A DNA stretch of 64,000 nucleotides, taken from the NCBI RefSeq assembly GCF_001614315.2, contig NZ_LVEG02000011.1:1-64000 (forward strand), read 5' to 3'. Source of the DNA: Halofilum ochraceum (GTDB lineage Bacteria; Pseudomonadota; Gammaproteobacteria; XJ16; Halofilaceae). Below, piece after piece: positions 74-63,797 of this stretch. Numbering within the stretch: position 1 is the first letter of the stretch; every line of letters starts with the position of its first letter. Position numbers and translations under genes: made by a program. The notes beneath the pieces are model-generated. The model ran no database searches. It worked only from the letters and a program-made list of their open reading frames with translations, and was not told the origin of the DNA.

Positions 74-97
74 CGTGGGTCTTTCTCCGTATTTCGA

Positions 98-176
98 CGA
101 GCGCCGTTGGAACATGGGCCGGTACCCGAGCCTGGCGGTTCGCGCGGGGCGAAGGCCGTTGCAGCGCTCCTCGGGT
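98..176 (-). promoter_or_regulatory. SAH riboswitch (ahcY leader)
   Basis: On the minus strand the leader contains the hallmark blocks of the SAH aptamer. GAGGAGCGCTGCAACGG lies at 172-156, CAGGCTCGG at 134-126, and AACGGCGCTC at 108-99. ACCCGAG (176-170) pairs with CTCGGGT (130-124). GAGCGC pairs with GCGCTC as the downstream pseudoknot arm. Known members turn the gene on when SAH accumulates. It sits 25 nt before the ahcY start codon, after metK, so it can control ahcY separately from metK. Confidence 0.9.
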
Positions 177-187
177 CCGGTTGCTGC

Positions 188-56266: not shown

Positions 56267-56475
56267 CCTCGGTCCAACGGCGCCACGCGGCAGGTCCGCG
56301 ACGATAGACGTTCCGGGGTCGCGGCGGCAAGCGCCGGTGGCCGGCATCGTGAGCGGTTCCCGCCTCCATGGTATTATGCCGCCCGGCTCTGCGCGGGGGG
56401 GACTGCGCGGCCCACGCCCCGAATCCCGTATGGCTTGCTGCCCGATGGAACCCTGCTTTCATCCGTGAGGTATCG

Positions 56476-57672
56476 ATGAATCAATTACTGCGCCTTCTGG
56501 AGTCCGGACTGCTCGACCTGTCCATCGCGGGCTACGTGGCGGTCGTGCTGGTTTTGACCCATATCACCATTGTCGCGGTGACGATCTACCTGCATCGCTG
56601 CCAGGCTCATCGCTCGGTCGATCTGCACCCGGTCGTGTCCCATTTCTTCCGTTTCTGGCTGTGGCTGACCACGGGCATGCGGACCATCGAGTGGGTGGCG
56701 ATCCACCGCAAGCATCACGCGCACACGGAGACCGAAGCGGATCCGCACAGCCCCCATCAGGCCGGTATCTGGAAAGTCCTGCTGGAAGGTGCCGAGCTGT
56801 ATCGCGAAGAGGCGAAGGACCAGGAGACTCTGGAAAAGTACGGACACGGCACGCCCGACGACTGGATGGAGCGCAACGTATACGCGCGTTTCGAGATCGG
56901 CGGCATCGTACTGATGGGCCTGCTCGCGCTCACGCTGTTCGGCGTGCTCGGCATGACCGTCTGGGCGATCCAGATGATGTGGATTCCGCTCTGGGCGGCG
57001 GGCGTCATCAACGGGCTGGGTCATTACCTCGGTTACCGCAACTTCGAATCGGCCGACGGCTCCACTAACCTCTCGCCCCTCGGGCTCCTGATCGGCGGCG
57101 AGGAGATGCACAACAACCACCACGCGTTCCCGAGTTCGGCGAAGTTCTCGCAGCGCTGGTACGAGTTCGACGTCGGCTGGTTCTATCTGCGAATCCTGTC
57201 CGCACTCGGCTTGGCGAAGATCAAGCGGGTCGCGCCCAGCCCCACGGTCGATCCCGCCAAGACGACGGTCGATTTCGAGACCGTCAAAGCCGTCGTGATC
57301 GCGCGCATGCACGTCATGCGGACGTACGCCCGGAGCGTGACGCTGCCGGTCCTGAAGGCCGAACTCGAGCGCGTGGACGGCGGGACCCGTGCGCTGCTCA
57401 AACGCGCCAAGGGTGCCCTGATCCGTGACGAGTCACGGATGGACGCGCAGGCGAAGGCACGGCGTGACCGCGCGCTGCGCGCCAACGAGCGCCTGCACAC
57501 GGTGTACGAATACCGCCGCCGTCTACAGGAGCTGTTCGCCTCGAAGCGCGTGACCCAGGAGCAGCTGGTTCAGTCGCTGCAGGCCTGGTGCGCGAGCGCC
57601 GAACAGACCGGCATCCAGGCGCTGGAGGACTTCGCCTCGCACCTGCGCGGCTATCGTCTCAAGACGGACTGA
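56476..57672 (+). CDS. Fatty acid desaturase (DesA-like) with C-terminal extension
   Basis: Membrane di-iron enzyme introducing a double bond into acyl chains, adjusting membrane fluidity. 398 residues, GAGG 5 nt before the ATG. Histidine boxes: HRCQAH (40-45), HRKHH (77-81) and EEMHNNHH (209-216). Four membrane helices. After about residue 270 comes a charged, helical tail of roughly 125 residues rich in Arg, Lys, Glu and Ala, not part of the catalytic fold. The upstream 209-nt gap separates it from the divergent ABC module. Confidence 0.93.
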   Translation: MNQLLRLLESGLLDLSIAGYVAVVLVLTHITIVAVTIYLHRCQAHRSVDLHPVVSHFFRFWLWLTTGMRTIEWVAIHRKHHAHTETEADPHSPHQAGIWKVLLEGAELYREEAKDQETLEKYGHGTPDDWMERNVYARFEIGGIVLMGLLALTLFGVLGMTVWAIQMMWIPLWAAGVINGLGHYLGYRNFESADGSTNLSPLGLLIGGEEMHNNHHAFPSSAKFSQRWYEFDVGWFYLRILSALGLAKIKRVAPSPTVDPAKTTVDFETVKAVVIARMHVMRTYARSVTLPVLKAELERVDGGTRALLKRAKGALIRDESRMDAQAKARRDRALRANERLHTVYEYRRRLQELFASKRVTQEQLVQSLQAWCASAEQTGIQALEDFASHLRGYRLKTD

Positions 57673-58005: not shown

Positions 58006-59046
58006 TCAGATGTCGGCAGGCGCACCCGTCACGCCGGGAGTAAGCGCGTCTTTGACCGGCACGGTGTGTTCGAGGAAGAACCGCGCCGTAGCCCGCCAGT
58101 CGTTCGCTCGTGCCTGGGCGATACAGTCCGCTTCATCGAGGTCGAGGCAGTTGCGCGCCGCGCGGGCCAGATCCTCGTCCAGGTAACCGGTAACGCGCTG
58201 CTGCACCACGTCGATCGGTCCGGTCACCGGGTAGGCGGCGACGGGGGTGCCACACGCCATCGCTTCCAGCATCACCACGCCATAGGTATCCGTGCGCGAC
58301 GGAAAGACGAATACATCGGCACTGGCGAACCACGCCGCCAGATCACGGCCGTGGCAGTAGCCGGGGAATACCGCATCCGGCCAGGTGTTTTGCAGGCGCT
58401 CGCGGTCCGGACCGTCGCCAACGACCACCTTGGTGCCCGGGGTATCCATGGCGAGGAATGCCTCGATGTTTTTCTCGCGCGAGACGCGCCCCACGAACAG
58501 GTGAATTGGCCTCTTGAGATCCGTCTCGAACGCGGCGTCCGGGGAAAATACACGCGTATCGACACCGCGATTCCAGACGACCAGGTGGCCGAAACCGCGG
58601 CCAGAGAGTTCGCGCGCCATGCCCGCGGTGGGCACCAGCGTGGCCGCGGCGTCGCGGTGGAAGCGGCGCAGCAGCGCATATCCCCAGGAGAGGGGGATGA
58701 ACGGCAGGCGCGCCTGGACGTATTCGGGGAAGCGGGTATGGAATGACGTCGTGTGCCGCCAGCCCCTGCGGCGCAGGTGGCGTATGGCCGCGTGGCCCAG
58801 CGGGCCCTCGGTGACGACATGCACGCGCTCCGGGGCGAATCGGTCGAGGCGGCGCCGCAACGCCCGGGTGCCGAGCGCGAGCCGGATCTCCGGGTAACCG
58901 GGGCAGGGAATCGTGCGGAAGTCGCCGGGCTCGATCACGTCGACGCTGTGGCCTTCGCCACGCAGCCATTCGATGACCGCGGCCAGCGTCGTGACCACAC
59001 CGTTGACCTGCGGATACCACGCGTCGGTGATGATACTGAACCTCAT
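58006..59046 (-). CDS. Glycosyltransferase family 4 (MgtA-like)
   Basis: 346 residues from the ATG at 59046, which overlaps the upstream hydrolase stop (ATGA). FSIITDAWYPQVNGVVTTL at the start, TSFHTRFPEYV, GRVSREKNIEAFL (nucleotide-sugar binding) and PSRTDTYGVVMLEAMACGTPVAA (EX7E region) place it among GT4 mannosyl/glucosyl transferases that act on lipids. Acceptor unknown. Confidence 0.9.
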   Translation of the reverse strand: MRFSIITDAWYPQVNGVVTTLAAVIEWLRGEGHSVDVIEPGDFRTIPCPGYPEIRLALGTRALRRRLDRFAPERVHVVTEGPLGHAAIRHLRRRGWRHTTSFHTRFPEYVQARLPFIPLSWGYALLRRFHRDAAATLVPTAGMARELSGRGFGHLVVWNRGVDTRVFSPDAAFETDLKRPIHLFVGRVSREKNIEAFLAMDTPGTKVVVGDGPDRERLQNTWPDAVFPGYCHGRDLAAWFASADVFVFPSRTDTYGVVMLEAMACGTPVAAYPVTGPIDVVQQRVTGYLDEDLARAARNCLDLDEADCIAQARANDWRATARFFLEHTVPVKDALTPGVTGAPADI

Positions 59047-59921
59047 CCGCTGACGGCCCCGGCGTCGTGCTCCGTCGCGTGGTCGACCTGCAGCCATTGG
59101 CGGACCTCGATACGGCCGTCGAAATGCTCGACCAGGGCCGTGCATGATTCCACCCAGTCACCGCAGTTGTGGTAGGTGATCCCCTGGACCTCCCGGATCT
59201 CGGCGTGATGGATGTGGCCGCAGACCACGCCCTCGAAGCCGCGCCGGCGGCAGTCCCAGGCGACCGCGTTCTCGAATTCGAAGATGAAGTTCACCGCGCC
59301 CTTCACCTTGTGCTTCACATGCGCGGACAACGACCAGTAGCCGTAACCGAAGCGCTCGCGGAAGCGGTTGAACCAGCGGTTGAGCACCAGCAGCAGGGCA
59401 TAGCCCCGATCGCCGAGAAAGGCCAGCCAGCGATGTGCCTGCACGACGCCGTCGTATTGATCGCCGTGGATCACCAATAGGCGGCGGCCGTCAGCGGTTC
59501 GGTGCTCGACCTCGTCGCGTACCGAGATGTTGCCCAGTTCCAGGTCGGTGTACCGGCGCAGGAACTCGTCGTGGTTGCCCGTCACCACAATGACCCGGGC
59601 ACCGCGTTTGGCCTTGGTCAGGACCCGGCGGATCACGTTGGTGTGCGACTGCGGCCAGTAGATCCGGGATTTCAGGCGCCATCCATCGACGATGTCCCCG
59701 ACGAGGTACAGGGTTTCGCAGTCGTGCTGCTTGAGGAACGCGATCAGGGCGTCGGCACGGCAGCCCTTCGTGCCCAGATGGAGATCCGACAGCCAGATGG
59801 TGCGTACCCGCTCGCGGCCGCTGCCGGTGTTGTCAGCCGTTCCGGTCGATCGGGTTGATGCATCGACGGCATCCGGTTCCGAAAGGACTTCCCGCAGTAC
59901 GGTGTCGGCGGTGCTGTTCAT
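59043..59921 (-). CDS. LpxH-like calcineurin-type phosphoesterase
   Basis: 292 residues from the ATG at 59921. Metal-binding motifs SDLHLG, VGDIVDGW, GNHDEF, HGDQYD and GHIHHAE match the UDP-2,3-diacylglucosamine hydrolase family. A Ser/Thr/Asp-rich N-terminal region of about 40 residues is extra. Pairing and translational coupling with a GT4 glycosyltransferase is common and suggests glycolipid work; it may not be the housekeeping LpxH. Confidence 0.85.
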   Translation of the reverse strand: MNSTADTVLREVLSEPDAVDASTRSTGTADNTGSGRERVRTIWLSDLHLGTKGCRADALIAFLKQHDCETLYLVGDIVDGWRLKSRIYWPQSHTNVIRRVLTKAKRGARVIVVTGNHDEFLRRYTDLELGNISVRDEVEHRTADGRRLLVIHGDQYDGVVQAHRWLAFLGDRGYALLLVLNRWFNRFRERFGYGYWSLSAHVKHKVKGAVNFIFEFENAVAWDCRRRGFEGVVCGHIHHAEIREVQGITYHNCGDWVESCTALVEHFDGRIEVRQWLQVDHATEHDAGAVSG

Positions 59922-60079
59922 GGGACGCAGGGAAACAGCCGCCCTTGAAGCGTCGATGACACCGGCGTGAACTTTCGATGACAGTGCTGGTCGCACGGTT
60001 ATGAGGCGATGTCGCAGGCGATAAATGCGGCGTCGTGCGTGGAACGCAGGCACGGGCGCCGGTCGGCGTACCGTTTGAT

Positions 60080-60256
60080 TGTCGATGGTGCCCGCGTCAA
60101 GGCGCGGGAATAGGGAATCCGGAAGGCTATATGGCCCGGCCGGAGCTGCCCCCGCAACTGTATGCGGTGAGTTTCCCGTCTACGTGCCACTGGGATATCC
60201 CCGGGAAGGCGGACGGAAAGCGACGACCCGCGAGCCAGGAAACCTGCCATCGATCA
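60080..60256 (+). promoter_or_regulatory. Cobalamin (adenosylcobalamin) riboswitch
   Basis: The conserved core is plain: GGAATAGGGAATCCGG near 60106-60121, the B12 box GGAGCTGCCCCCGCAACTGT (60141-60160), GGTGAGTTTCCCG, GCCACTGGG, GGGAAGGCGG and CGCGAGCCAGGAAACCTGCC. CGATGG (60083-60088) and CCATCG (60247-60252) close P1. Members repress the gene below when B12 is plentiful. The 158 bp between the LpxH-like gene and the aptamer hold no gene. The 226 nt after it contain a CAACGGG/CCCGTTG hairpin but no clear terminator. Confidence 0.95.
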
Positions 60257-60482
60257 GGGGTGCCCAGGCGGGTATCCGGCAGTGCAAGTCCGAGCGGGCG
60301 GGGTGTCCCGGCGGCGTCTGCGCAGCGTGCAATGGCAATCGGCTCGGCCGGCGGCGCAACGGGACTCCAGCCCGTTGATCCGGTAGACCGGTAGGTCCGT
60401 CATTCGCAACACTGCGCTGTTCGACCCTTCTCTCCCGCAGCCCGCATCCGGGTCACAGGCAACGGGCGAGGAGTCCTGCATC

Positions 60483-61802
60483 ATGTCCAGTCAGTCCAAC
60501 GTCAATTACCAGCATTCGATCGACCAGAGCGATCGCAATGTCCCGATCAACCTGCGCCAGACCGGCGATCCCGGTATCCGCATGCTGATCTCCAACCGCG
60601 TGCGCAAGTCCGCCTACTGGCACCTTTCCGTCGAGGCGGGTTGCTGGCGCGCGACGGTCTACAACCGCATGTATCACCCGCGTGGCTACGTCCGTCCGGA
60701 AGACGGCGGCGCCATGGTCGAGTACCGCGCGCTCGTCAACGACGTCACGCTCTGGAACGTCGCGGTGGAGCGTCCCATTCGCGTGAAAGGCCCCGATGCC
60801 GAGGCCTTCTGCAACTATGTCTGTACGCGGGATATGACCCGTGTGCCTTCGATGAAGGGGCGCTACGTCATCCTCTGCGACGAGGAGGGCCATGTCCTCA
60901 ATGATCCGGTCATGCTCCGGCTCTCGCAGGACGAGTTCTGGTTCACGATCAGCGACTCCGATCTCGCGTATTGGTTCAAGGGCATCAACGTCGGCGCGCG
61001 CTACGACGTCACGATTGAGGAGATCGACGTCGCGCCGCTGCAGATCCAAGGCCCCAAGTCCGAGGACCTGATGGCCGATCTGGTCGGCGAGGGTGTGCGC
61101 GAAGTGCCGTATTACGGGCTCATGGCGGCACAGATCGACGGGGTGGACGTGATCATCTCGCAGACCGGGTTCTCCGGCGAGAAGGGGTATGAGGTCTACG
61201 CCTATGACTCCACGCTCAATGCCGAGGCGGTCTGGAACGCGATCCGCGCCGCCGGTGAGAAGCACAACCTGATGGTGATCGCGCCGGCCCATCATCGTCG
61301 GATCGCGGCCGGTATCCTGTCCTACGGCCAGGATCTCGATCACGAGACCAATCCCTTTCAGTGCAATCTCGGTCACATGGTGCCGAAGACCAAGGAGGCG
61401 GATTACATCGGCAAGCAGGCGCTGGAAGCCACGCGCGAGAAGGTGAATAACGGCAACCCGCCGTTCACGCACCAGCTCGTGGGGCTGAAGATCGAGGGCA
61501 AGCCGATCGAGGACTACGCACCGGATTTCTGGCTGGTCGGGCATGACGCCGACAGCGAGCCCTGCGGCTGGATCACCTCGCCCTGGTACTCGCCGGAGCT
61601 GAATACGAATATCGGGATGGCGTATGTTCCGGTCGAATCGGCGGCGCTGGGCACGGAGTTTGTCGCTTGGCTGCCCGAGGAGTACCAGCCGATGCCGGGG
61701 CATCCGGTCCCGGCGGTAGTCGCCGAGATGCCCTTCCGCGAGTCCGTGAACCCGAGCGCCCGCGAACGCGCCCGGGCCGAAGGCCGCGAATACGCCTATT
61801 GA
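60483..61802 (+). CDS. DmdA-like folate-dependent methyltransferase (GcvT family)
   Basis: 439 residues, GGAG 8 nt before the ATG. Related to glycine cleavage T-protein but closest in pattern to dimethylsulfoniopropionate demethylase DmdA: NRVRKSAYWHLSVEAG, ATVYNRMYHPRG, VTLWNVAVERPI, FTISDSDLAYWFKG, LQIQGPKSEDLM and GFSGEKGYEVYAYD. It is about 70 residues longer than DmdA, mostly at the N-terminus (about 32 residues) and C-terminus. No gcvH or gcvP is nearby, so it is not the glycine cleavage enzyme. It would move a methyl group from a substrate (DMSP or another) to tetrahydrofolate. It is the only gene downstream of the cobalamin riboswitch. Confidence 0.8.
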   Translation: MSSQSNVNYQHSIDQSDRNVPINLRQTGDPGIRMLISNRVRKSAYWHLSVEAGCWRATVYNRMYHPRGYVRPEDGGAMVEYRALVNDVTLWNVAVERPIRVKGPDAEAFCNYVCTRDMTRVPSMKGRYVILCDEEGHVLNDPVMLRLSQDEFWFTISDSDLAYWFKGINVGARYDVTIEEIDVAPLQIQGPKSEDLMADLVGEGVREVPYYGLMAAQIDGVDVIISQTGFSGEKGYEVYAYDSTLNAEAVWNAIRAAGEKHNLMVIAPAHHRRIAAGILSYGQDLDHETNPFQCNLGHMVPKTKEADYIGKQALEATREKVNNGNPPFTHQLVGLKIEGKPIEDYAPDFWLVGHDADSEPCGWITSPWYSPELNTNIGMAYVPVESAALGTEFVAWLPEEYQPMPGHPVPAVVAEMPFRESVNPSARERARAEGREYAY

Positions 61803-61814
61803 TGGGGTAAAACA

Positions 61815-61851
61815 CCGGTGGCCGTCCGCTTGCGGGCGGCCACCGGCTTTT
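61815..61851 (+). terminator. Intrinsic terminator after the DmdA-like gene
   Basis: CCGGTGGCC and GGCCACCGG pair, with further GC pairs inside, and are followed by CTTTTG, 12 nt past the stop. It makes the riboswitch-controlled unit monocistronic. Confidence 0.85.
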
Positions 61852-61876: not shown

Positions 61877-62144
61877 GGGTTCTCGCCAAGGCGCTAAGGG
61901 CGCCAAGGGGCGCGAAGGAAATTCGGAGTCATGCGAAGAGAACCGTATCGGCCGTAGGTCGGACTTCCAGTCCGACAGATCGGAGGCTTCGGCGTGTCGG
62001 ACTGGAAGTCCGACCTACACTCGCTTCACGGCTGCGTGCCCTTCGTTTCCGCCCGTTTGCGGACACGGAATCCGATTACTCGCCATTTCCCGCCACTGTC
62101 TTCCTTCGCGTACCTTGGCGCCCTTCGCGCCTTGGCGAGAACCC
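61877..62144. repeat. Inverted-repeat element F (CGCCAAG family)
   Basis: Outer arms 61877-61921 and 62101-62144 (GGGTTCTCGCCAAGGCGC and inverse). Inner arms 61954-61978 and 61994-62020 carry GTAGGTCGGACTTCCAGTCC and its inverse, the same core as element D. The stretch after the inner arm (GGCTGCGTGCC...GCGGACACGGAA) also matches D. Lies between the DmdA-like gene and the convergent rpmG. Confidence 0.85.
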
Positions 62145-62917: not shown

Positions 62918-63274
62918 ATGGGTACGGTATTCCTGCGCGACCTGCGGGTCGAGACCATCATCGGCATATTCGAGTGGGAGCGAACGACCCGCCAGGTCGT
63001 GAACATCGATCTCGAGATGGCCGCCGACATCGCGCGCGCCGCCGCGAGCGATTCGATCGAGGACGCGCTCGACTACAAGAGCATCTCCAAGCGGCTGATC
63101 GACTTCGTCAGTGCGAGTTCCTACCAGCTGGTCGAGACCCTCGCCGAGGAGATCGCGGGCATCGTGCGTGGGGAGTTCGGCGTGTCCTGGGTCAAGGTGA
63201 CCGTCTCCAAACCGGGCGCGATCCGTGGCGCTCGGGATGTCGGCGTCGTCATCGAGCGTGGCGAGCGGGGCTGA
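62918..63274 (+). CDS. folB: Dihydroneopterin aldolase
   Basis: Splits 7,8-dihydroneopterin to 6-hydroxymethyl-dihydropterin in folate synthesis. 118 residues, normal. [19 protein letters not shown] and [13 protein letters not shown] are family segments, with the catalytic Lys in [26 protein letters not shown] -10-like box (62888-62893) lies upstream with no clear -35. GGGG precedes the ATG. Confidence 0.96.
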
Positions 63275-63278
63275 CCTG

Positions 63279-63797
63279 GTGATCGAGCGCGTCTACATCT
63301 CCGTCGGCACCAACGTGGACCGCGAGCGCAATCTGCCCGGTGGCCTGCGCGCCCTGCGCGAACGCTTCGGCCCGCTGGCGGTATCCACGATCTACGAGTG
63401 CCCGGCGGTGGGCTTCGAGGGCGAAGATTTCTACAACTGTGTCGCCGCGTTCGACAGCGATGAACCCGTGCTCGACGTCTACGCGGCGCTGCACGGCATC
63501 GAGGACGCGTTCGGGCGCGATCGCAGCCAGCCGAAATTCTCGCCGCGAACGCTCGATCTCGATCTGCTCCTGTTCGGTTCAAGGATCCTGCGCGAAGGCA
63601 AGCTGGTGCTGCCCCGCCCGGAGATCGACCGCGTCGCGTTTGTCCTCGCCCCGCTGGCGGAACTCGCCGGCGATCTGGAACATCCCGTCCATGGCGACCC
63701 ACTGACGGCCCAATGGGCCCGTTTCGACGGCATCGGTGCCGATGACCTCCAGCCGGTCGCGCCTGACGGCCTGGTGCCGCCCGAGGTGGGCCGGTAG
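63279..63797 (+). CDS. folK: 2-amino-4-hydroxy-6-hydroxymethyldihydropteridine pyrophosphokinase
   Basis: Next folate step, pyrophosphorylating the FolB product. 172 residues from GTG 63279, 4 nt after the folB stop, with GCGGGG about 9 nt upstream. YISVGTNVDRERNL at the start and FSPRTLDLDLLLFG with PRPEIDRVAFVLAPLAELA are typical of HPPK. Confidence 0.94.
   Translation: MIERVYISVGTNVDRERNLPGGLRALRERFGPLAVSTIYECPAVGFEGEDFYNCVAAFDSDEPVLDVYAALHGIEDAFGRDRSQPKFSPRTLDLDLLLFGSRILREGKLVLPRPEIDRVAFVLAPLAELAGDLEHPVHGDPLTAQWARFDGIGADDLQPVAPDGLVPPEVGR

Follow-up and report, generated by a model that had tools for sequence, protein, structure and literature searches.

A cobalamin riboswitch in front of a putative B12-independent betaine demethylase gene in Halofilum ochraceum

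Introduction

With few exceptions, cobalamin riboswitches turn their genes OFF in response to B12. One of the genes placed under such a switch, e.g. in mycobacteria, is metE, which encodes the B12-independent twin of the methionine synthase MetH. Glycine betaine has three methyl groups to lose during its catabolism. The second and the third leave via flavoenzymes as methylene-THF; methyl-THF, which is burnt via an MTHFR, arises only if the first methyl group of betaine is transferred directly.

Among the enzymes of betaine demethylation, MtgC and MtgD were shown to be essential in Ruegeria pomeroyi (PMC12478193). The neighbour of metF in Candidatus Pelagibacter ubique, SAR11_1265, was described as an aminomethyltransferase whose substrate is unknown, and was once guessed to act on the second methyl group of DMSP, i.e. 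as MMPA demethylase (PMC3160333). In expression data SAR11_1265 co-varies with SAR11_1264, and sulfur limitation induces bhmT, not SAR11_1265 (PMC5069961). A report tying a B12 riboswitch to dmdA or to betaine demethylation was not found in the open-access literature.

Here we describe such a candidate pairing of switch and gene in the window, i.e. the whole 64,000-nucleotide stretch of Halofilum ochraceum DNA that was analysed.

Results

The riboswitch and its single-gene unit

The unit consists of the following features, all given in window positions:

60069-60265, forward strand: cobalamin riboswitch aptamer (RF00174; Rfam cmscan, 120.9 bits, E = 8.9e-30)
60288-60308, forward strand: leader block GTCCGAGCGGGCGGGGTGYCC, 21 nt, directly 3' of the aptamer (three-genome alignment)
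60468-60473, forward strand: ribosome-binding site GAGGAG, 9 nt 5' of the ATG (from the sequence)
60483-61802, forward strand: gene for a GcvT-superfamily methyltransferase, 439 aa, ATG start (Pfam GCV_T and GCV_T_C, NCBIfam, tree and orthologue contexts)
61815-61846, forward strand: intrinsic terminator ending the single-gene unit, a 14-pair stem with 12 G-C pairs followed by CTTTT (a consensus match only, of which 0.9 are expected in shuffles)

The aptamer match, obtained by scanning the whole window with cmscan, spans the full length of the model (positions 1-189) and lies far above the gathering score of 31.5 bits, and the conserved riboswitch core (GCCACTG, AGCCAGGAAACCTGCC) is intact. 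The riboswitch of the original prediction was thereby confirmed, its start at 60080 falling about 11 nt inside the match, and the claim that a single gene precedes the terminator is supported as well. No other site in the stretch resembles a terminator. Upstream, the unit is bordered by a divergent metallophosphatase gene (59043-60053).

Aptamer and gene are retained at the same chromosomal place in both other genomes of the genus (116.5 and 112.2 bits). The more distant sister species shows the same gene order across the region, and its aptamer core can still be aligned while most of the remaining leader has diverged, a pattern that speaks for the switch being under selection. Taken together, these findings are far beyond chance. 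Between the 3' end of the aptamer and the start of the gene lies a gap of 217 nt. Within it the block at 60288-60308 is almost invariant across the genus and is a candidate part of the expression platform, its predicted pairing varying between the species. The ribosome-binding site is predicted to be mostly paired in the folded leader, via helices which are not conserved; folding of the leader and the genus alignment revealed no conserved helix masking it, the predicted pairing being species-specific, and the folding z-score of the leader is ~0. Furthermore, the terminator search yielded no terminator between aptamer and gene. Translational control by the leader is our guess.

Several other elements of the window were recorded. 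An inverted repeat (gtaggtcggacttccagtccgaca ... tgtcggactggaagtccgacctac, 61956-62022), which resembles a small repetitive element, follows the terminator and precedes the next genes. These are folB and folK of folate synthesis (62918-63797, same strand, collinear in the sister species), which probably form a unit separate from that of the riboswitch gene. At the opposite end of the window an SAH riboswitch (RF01057, 56.5 bits; 92-178, reverse strand) reads out of the window, its gene lying beyond the start of the contig. An ORF at 56368-57669 fuses a fatty acid desaturase domain (PF00487) to a C-terminal part resembling an ISL3 transposase (PF01610).

The 439-aa protein and its clade

GCV_T (3.8e-40) and GCV_T_C are the only domains that Pfam finds in the 439-aa protein; a corrinoid domain is absent. 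Its best NCBIfam model is that of DMSP demethylase (NF009133), for which it scores 263 bits where 410 would be required, a model on which the true DmdA proteins of two other gammaproteobacteria reach 448 and 517 bits. The gcvT models give 129-161 bits (cut-offs 236-300), the TMAO demethylase model also remains well below its cut-off, and all 27 clade members tested hit the same set of models as the window protein. In a maximum-likelihood tree the 35 clade members cluster together (SH-aLRT 96) in a group which is sister to DmdA and DmdA-like proteins and stands apart from the GcvT, SoxA and DMGDH relatives of the window genome itself.

Given its score and its separate clade, the protein is not DmdA. 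An identity as GcvT of the glycine cleavage system was dismissed as well, with the gcvT scores below their cut-offs; another GCV_T protein of this genome lies in two pieces, one at the end of contig C11 and one at the start of C12, with gcvH/gcvP-like genes after it. A link of the gene to B12 synthesis was likewise discarded, no such genes being neighbours and CbiC being absent from the genome. The protein belongs to no characterised family below the superfamily level, and the literature search turned up no experiment with a protein of this clade.

Y128, D141, E237 and R273 are among the residues which are invariant across GcvT, DmdA and the clade, so that folate chemistry is to be expected. 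The predicted structure (mean pLDDT 68, moderate) finds DmdA (3tfh, E 1e-30) as its best match; at residues 55-78 and 268-299 the model is too weak for arguments on the substrate pocket. The folate-type GcvT-family enzyme that had been proposed is supported, with its folate-site residues kept. Its description as DmdA-like holds as regards the sister-clade relationship and fails as regards identity, and no placement with a GcvT linked to B12 synthesis was seen.

Orthologues and their gene neighbours

Relatives with 78-84% identity occur in Halomonas, Aquisalimonas and one Salinisphaeraceae MAG, and relatives with 56-70% identity in Alphaproteobacteria, Citricoccus, Grimontia and very many SAR11 genomes, the proteins at the SAR11 loci being 56-59% identical to the window protein. 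Evidently, SAR11_1265 is the SAR11 member of the clade, as indicated by the shared neighbourhood beside metF.

An MTHFR-like gene is found near the orthologue at all 46 SAR11 loci and at 9 of the 42 other loci; among the latter, dimethylglycine dehydrogenase (DMGDH, 12/42), sarcosine oxidase (5/42) and FTHFS (2/42) also occur. At two loci (L060 and L063) the gene, an MTHFR-like gene, DMGDH and SoxBDA follow each other in one direction. Two others (L059 and L062) combine the gene with an MTHFR-like gene and FTHFS, and at a further two (L044 and L049) it adjoins Sox genes. At L166 the order is gene, DUF5981 and MetF2, and L165 holds the gene and MetF2. The MetF2 proteins of these two loci are 66% and 59-75% identical to MetF2 of the mtg cluster of the window genome, in which the same DUF5981 gene as in L166 precedes MetF2; in both loci the enzyme occupies the place where MtgBCD-RamA would be.

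A dedicated MTHFR beside the orthologues implies that the product is methyl-THF, and the contexts with MTHFR-like genes, DMGDH and sarcosine oxidase point to the reaction glycine betaine + THF -> dimethylglycine + methyl-THF. The clade is thus best read, from its gene neighbourhoods, as catalysing the first step of glycine betaine demethylation. Against this reading, no betaine genes lie beside the gene in the genome of the window itself, and SAR11 already possesses BHMT. Furthermore, GbcB scores above its cut-off in nine of the 37 orthologue-bearing genomes outside the genus, namely in Grimontia and in eight Halomonas (of nine Halomonas genomes checked), where the clade gene is therefore probably not the only first step.

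The corrinoid betaine route and the B12 economy of the genome

An apparently complete corrinoid betaine system is encoded elsewhere in the genome (C1:574843-582922, locus L125). This mtg cluster comprises MtgB, MtgC, DUF1638, a PF13769 protein, DUF5981, MetF2, a methyl-THF:corrinoid methyltransferase (MtgD) and a RamA-like activase; GbdR comes after it and an OpuAC-type transporter (betaine-binding protein) lies upstream. The cluster is also found in L172 and L184, and the MtgC proteins of the two sister species are 100% and 89% identical to that of the window genome. A second MtgB (PF06253), on C16, gives 429.6 bits to PDB 9yce, 'glycine betaine methyltransferase'. GbcAB was considered as a B12-free route of the genome's own and was not supported, the GbcB-like protein reaching 437 bits (cut-off 500) and having no adjoining Rieske gene.

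MetH is present (2055 bits) and is the only methionine synthase found; a search of the genome for MetE-type proteins (PF01717), including core-MetE, gave no match. No CbiC/CobH was found in the window genome either, and the B12-related proteins are BtuB-, BtuF- and BtuC-like proteins, BtuR, BluB and a CobN-like protein. BtuB and the CobN-like gene each stand behind a cobalamin riboswitch, both being strong matches. With no CbiC and with its B12 import genes under riboswitches, the genome looks like that of a cell which imports its B12 and can become short of it. A weak fourth cobalamin riboswitch match (35.8 bits; L120:7459-7604, i.e. C2:37458-37603) has no obvious B12-related gene behind it and may be degenerate or false.

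Distribution of the switch and of both systems

In the genus, MtgC, MTTB proteins, the gene and the riboswitch are all present in three of three genomes. At relatives outside the genus no riboswitch was detected (23 loci searched by Rfam, the others by the core motif only), so the question of whether relatives keep it has a positive answer within the genus and a negative one beyond. MtgB and MtgC occur together in two of the 37 orthologue-bearing genomes outside the genus, Halomonas urumqiensis (G063) and G386, and these carry the gene without a riboswitch, which refutes the rule that both systems together mean a riboswitch.

MTTB was found in 21 of 369 gammaproteobacteria and is so rare that the lack of it in most genomes with the orthologue does not in itself amount to an anticorrelation. 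A general rule by which the orthologue excludes MTTB was dropped, as 4 of the 10 orthologue carriers in this gammaproteobacterial sample have MTTB, which is above chance. The genome of locus L059 (G076) contains MtgC without any MTTB protein, which fits the split methionine synthase of Phaeobacter.

Discussion

We consider it likely that the gene encodes a B12-independent betaine demethylase which is switched on when B12 is scarce and substitutes for MtgBCD in the way that MetE substitutes for MetH. The corrinoid-free enzyme would transfer one of the N-methyl groups of glycine betaine directly to THF, giving dimethylglycine and 5-methyl-THF. This would be the same net reaction as that of MtgB (betaine:corrinoid methyltransferase), MtgC (corrinoid protein) and MtgD (methylcorrinoid:THF methyltransferase), which use B12. 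With B12 present, the riboswitch would bind cobalamin and keep the gene off, and MtgBCD would do the work; with B12 scarce, the switch would free the gene, and the folate enzyme would replace the corrinoid route and let betaine catabolism continue. The scarce B12 would then be left for MetH, and MetF2 would oxidise the methyl-THF from either route.

The computation itself establishes the riboswitch, the single-gene unit, the clade, the gene contexts, the corrinoid route and the lack of MetE and CbiC. In this scheme substrate and reaction are inferred from the gene contexts, the OFF sign follows the usual behaviour of the riboswitch class by analogy, and the sparing of B12 is our inference as well. 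The corrinoid betaine cluster of the genome and the orthologues in betaine-oxidation clusters support the original prediction in its proposal that a B12-dependent (corrinoid) demethylation is replaced. With no B12 at all MetH should still be blocked, which we count against this reading.

The strongest competitor, though itself unlikely, keeps the same logic and changes the substrate to proline or hydroxyproline betaine, carnitine, DMSP or its product MMPA, the enzyme then replacing another corrinoid enzyme of the MTTB family in this genome. Four PF06253 matches are present in the genome, so that several corrinoid demethylations may exist. The sister clade is DmdA, and SAR11_1265 was once proposed as MMPA demethylase (PMC3160333). 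Furthermore, one genome (G256, locus L162) carries two adjacent GcvT-like genes near DMGDH, two enolase-superfamily genes and a Rieske oxygenase, a context in which the pathway or substrate may possibly be that of another betaine. Against this, genes of the glycine betaine series (DMGDH, SoxBDAG) and of the oxidation of THF-bound C1 units are present in most of the informative contexts, and SAR11_1265, unlike bhmT, is not induced by sulfur limitation (PMC5069961).

A further alternative, which we regard as improbable, treats the riboswitch as inherited baggage or gives it an unusual sign, and links the gene to B12 without any isozyme logic. Such a view would accommodate the restriction of the switch to one genus, the two other genomes that have both systems and no switch, and a leader with neither a terminator before the gene nor a conserved RBS-masking helix. 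Against it, the aptamer core is retained in all three species despite the divergence of other parts of the leader and is followed by a conserved block, and the genus possesses the B12-dependent MtgBCD and, as tested in the window genome, no CbiC. That the enzyme is made at low B12 mainly as a source of 5-methyl-THF for methionine or one-carbon metabolism, as the original prediction had also offered, is very unlikely: the product is probably methyl-THF, judging by the linked MTHFR-like genes, but these are best read as methyl-THF oxidisers, and with MetH and neither MetE nor core-MetE found, methyl-THF should be trapped and pile up when B12 is short.

Returning to the demethylation of glycine betaine as the preferred reading, we think it rather probable, with slightly less confidence than for the locus itself, that the SAR11_1265-type clade, which is widespread among halophiles and in SAR11, represents the first glycine betaine demethylase known to consist of a single protein, to be linked to folate and to work without B12, with a riboswitch in this genus arbitrating between it and MtgBCD. 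The novelty would lie in the activity of these enzymes and in the pairing of the two systems; the principle of the B12 switch is already known. A testable function would thereby be assigned to a clade of unknown role which is present in many genomes of SAR11, a group that ranks among the ocean's most abundant bacteria, and the supply of B12 would be linked to the turnover of betaine in saline waters.

Compared with its relatives by fold, the window protein shares with DmdA (PDB 3tfh) the structure and the sister-clade position and, by analogy, would share the direct methyl transfer to THF. It is 29-30% identical to DmdA and differs from it in an extra conserved segment (YHPRGYVRPEDGG) and in the conserved Trp46 and Trp55. 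SAR11_1265 of Candidatus Pelagibacter ubique has the same neighbour, metF, as the clade loci; unlike in the window genome, the riboswitch was not found at the SAR11 loci of the clade and MtgC is absent from SAR11.

Compared with systems of the same proposed function, the window enzyme would catalyse the same net reaction as MtgBCD of Ruegeria pomeroyi (PMC12478193) and Desulfitobacterium, with MetF2 downstream; MtgBCD is corrinoid-dependent and has several subunits, whereas the window enzyme is a single protein without a B12 domain. GbcAB and BHMT are likewise B12-independent first steps of betaine catabolism. The former is a Rieske oxygenase giving formaldehyde and the latter transfers the methyl group to homocysteine, and the window enzyme is unlike both; it would represent a fourth type of first step besides GbcAB, BHMT and MtgBCD. 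The likeness to the MetE riboswitch lies in a switch before a B12-independent enzyme which has a B12-dependent counterpart in the same genome. Reaction and fold are different, and here the pair would serve betaine demethylation, with a multi-protein corrinoid side (MtgBCD and RamA). If this holds, the MetE/MetH principle, in which a B12 riboswitch picks the B12-dependent or the B12-free enzyme, reaches into osmolyte catabolism.
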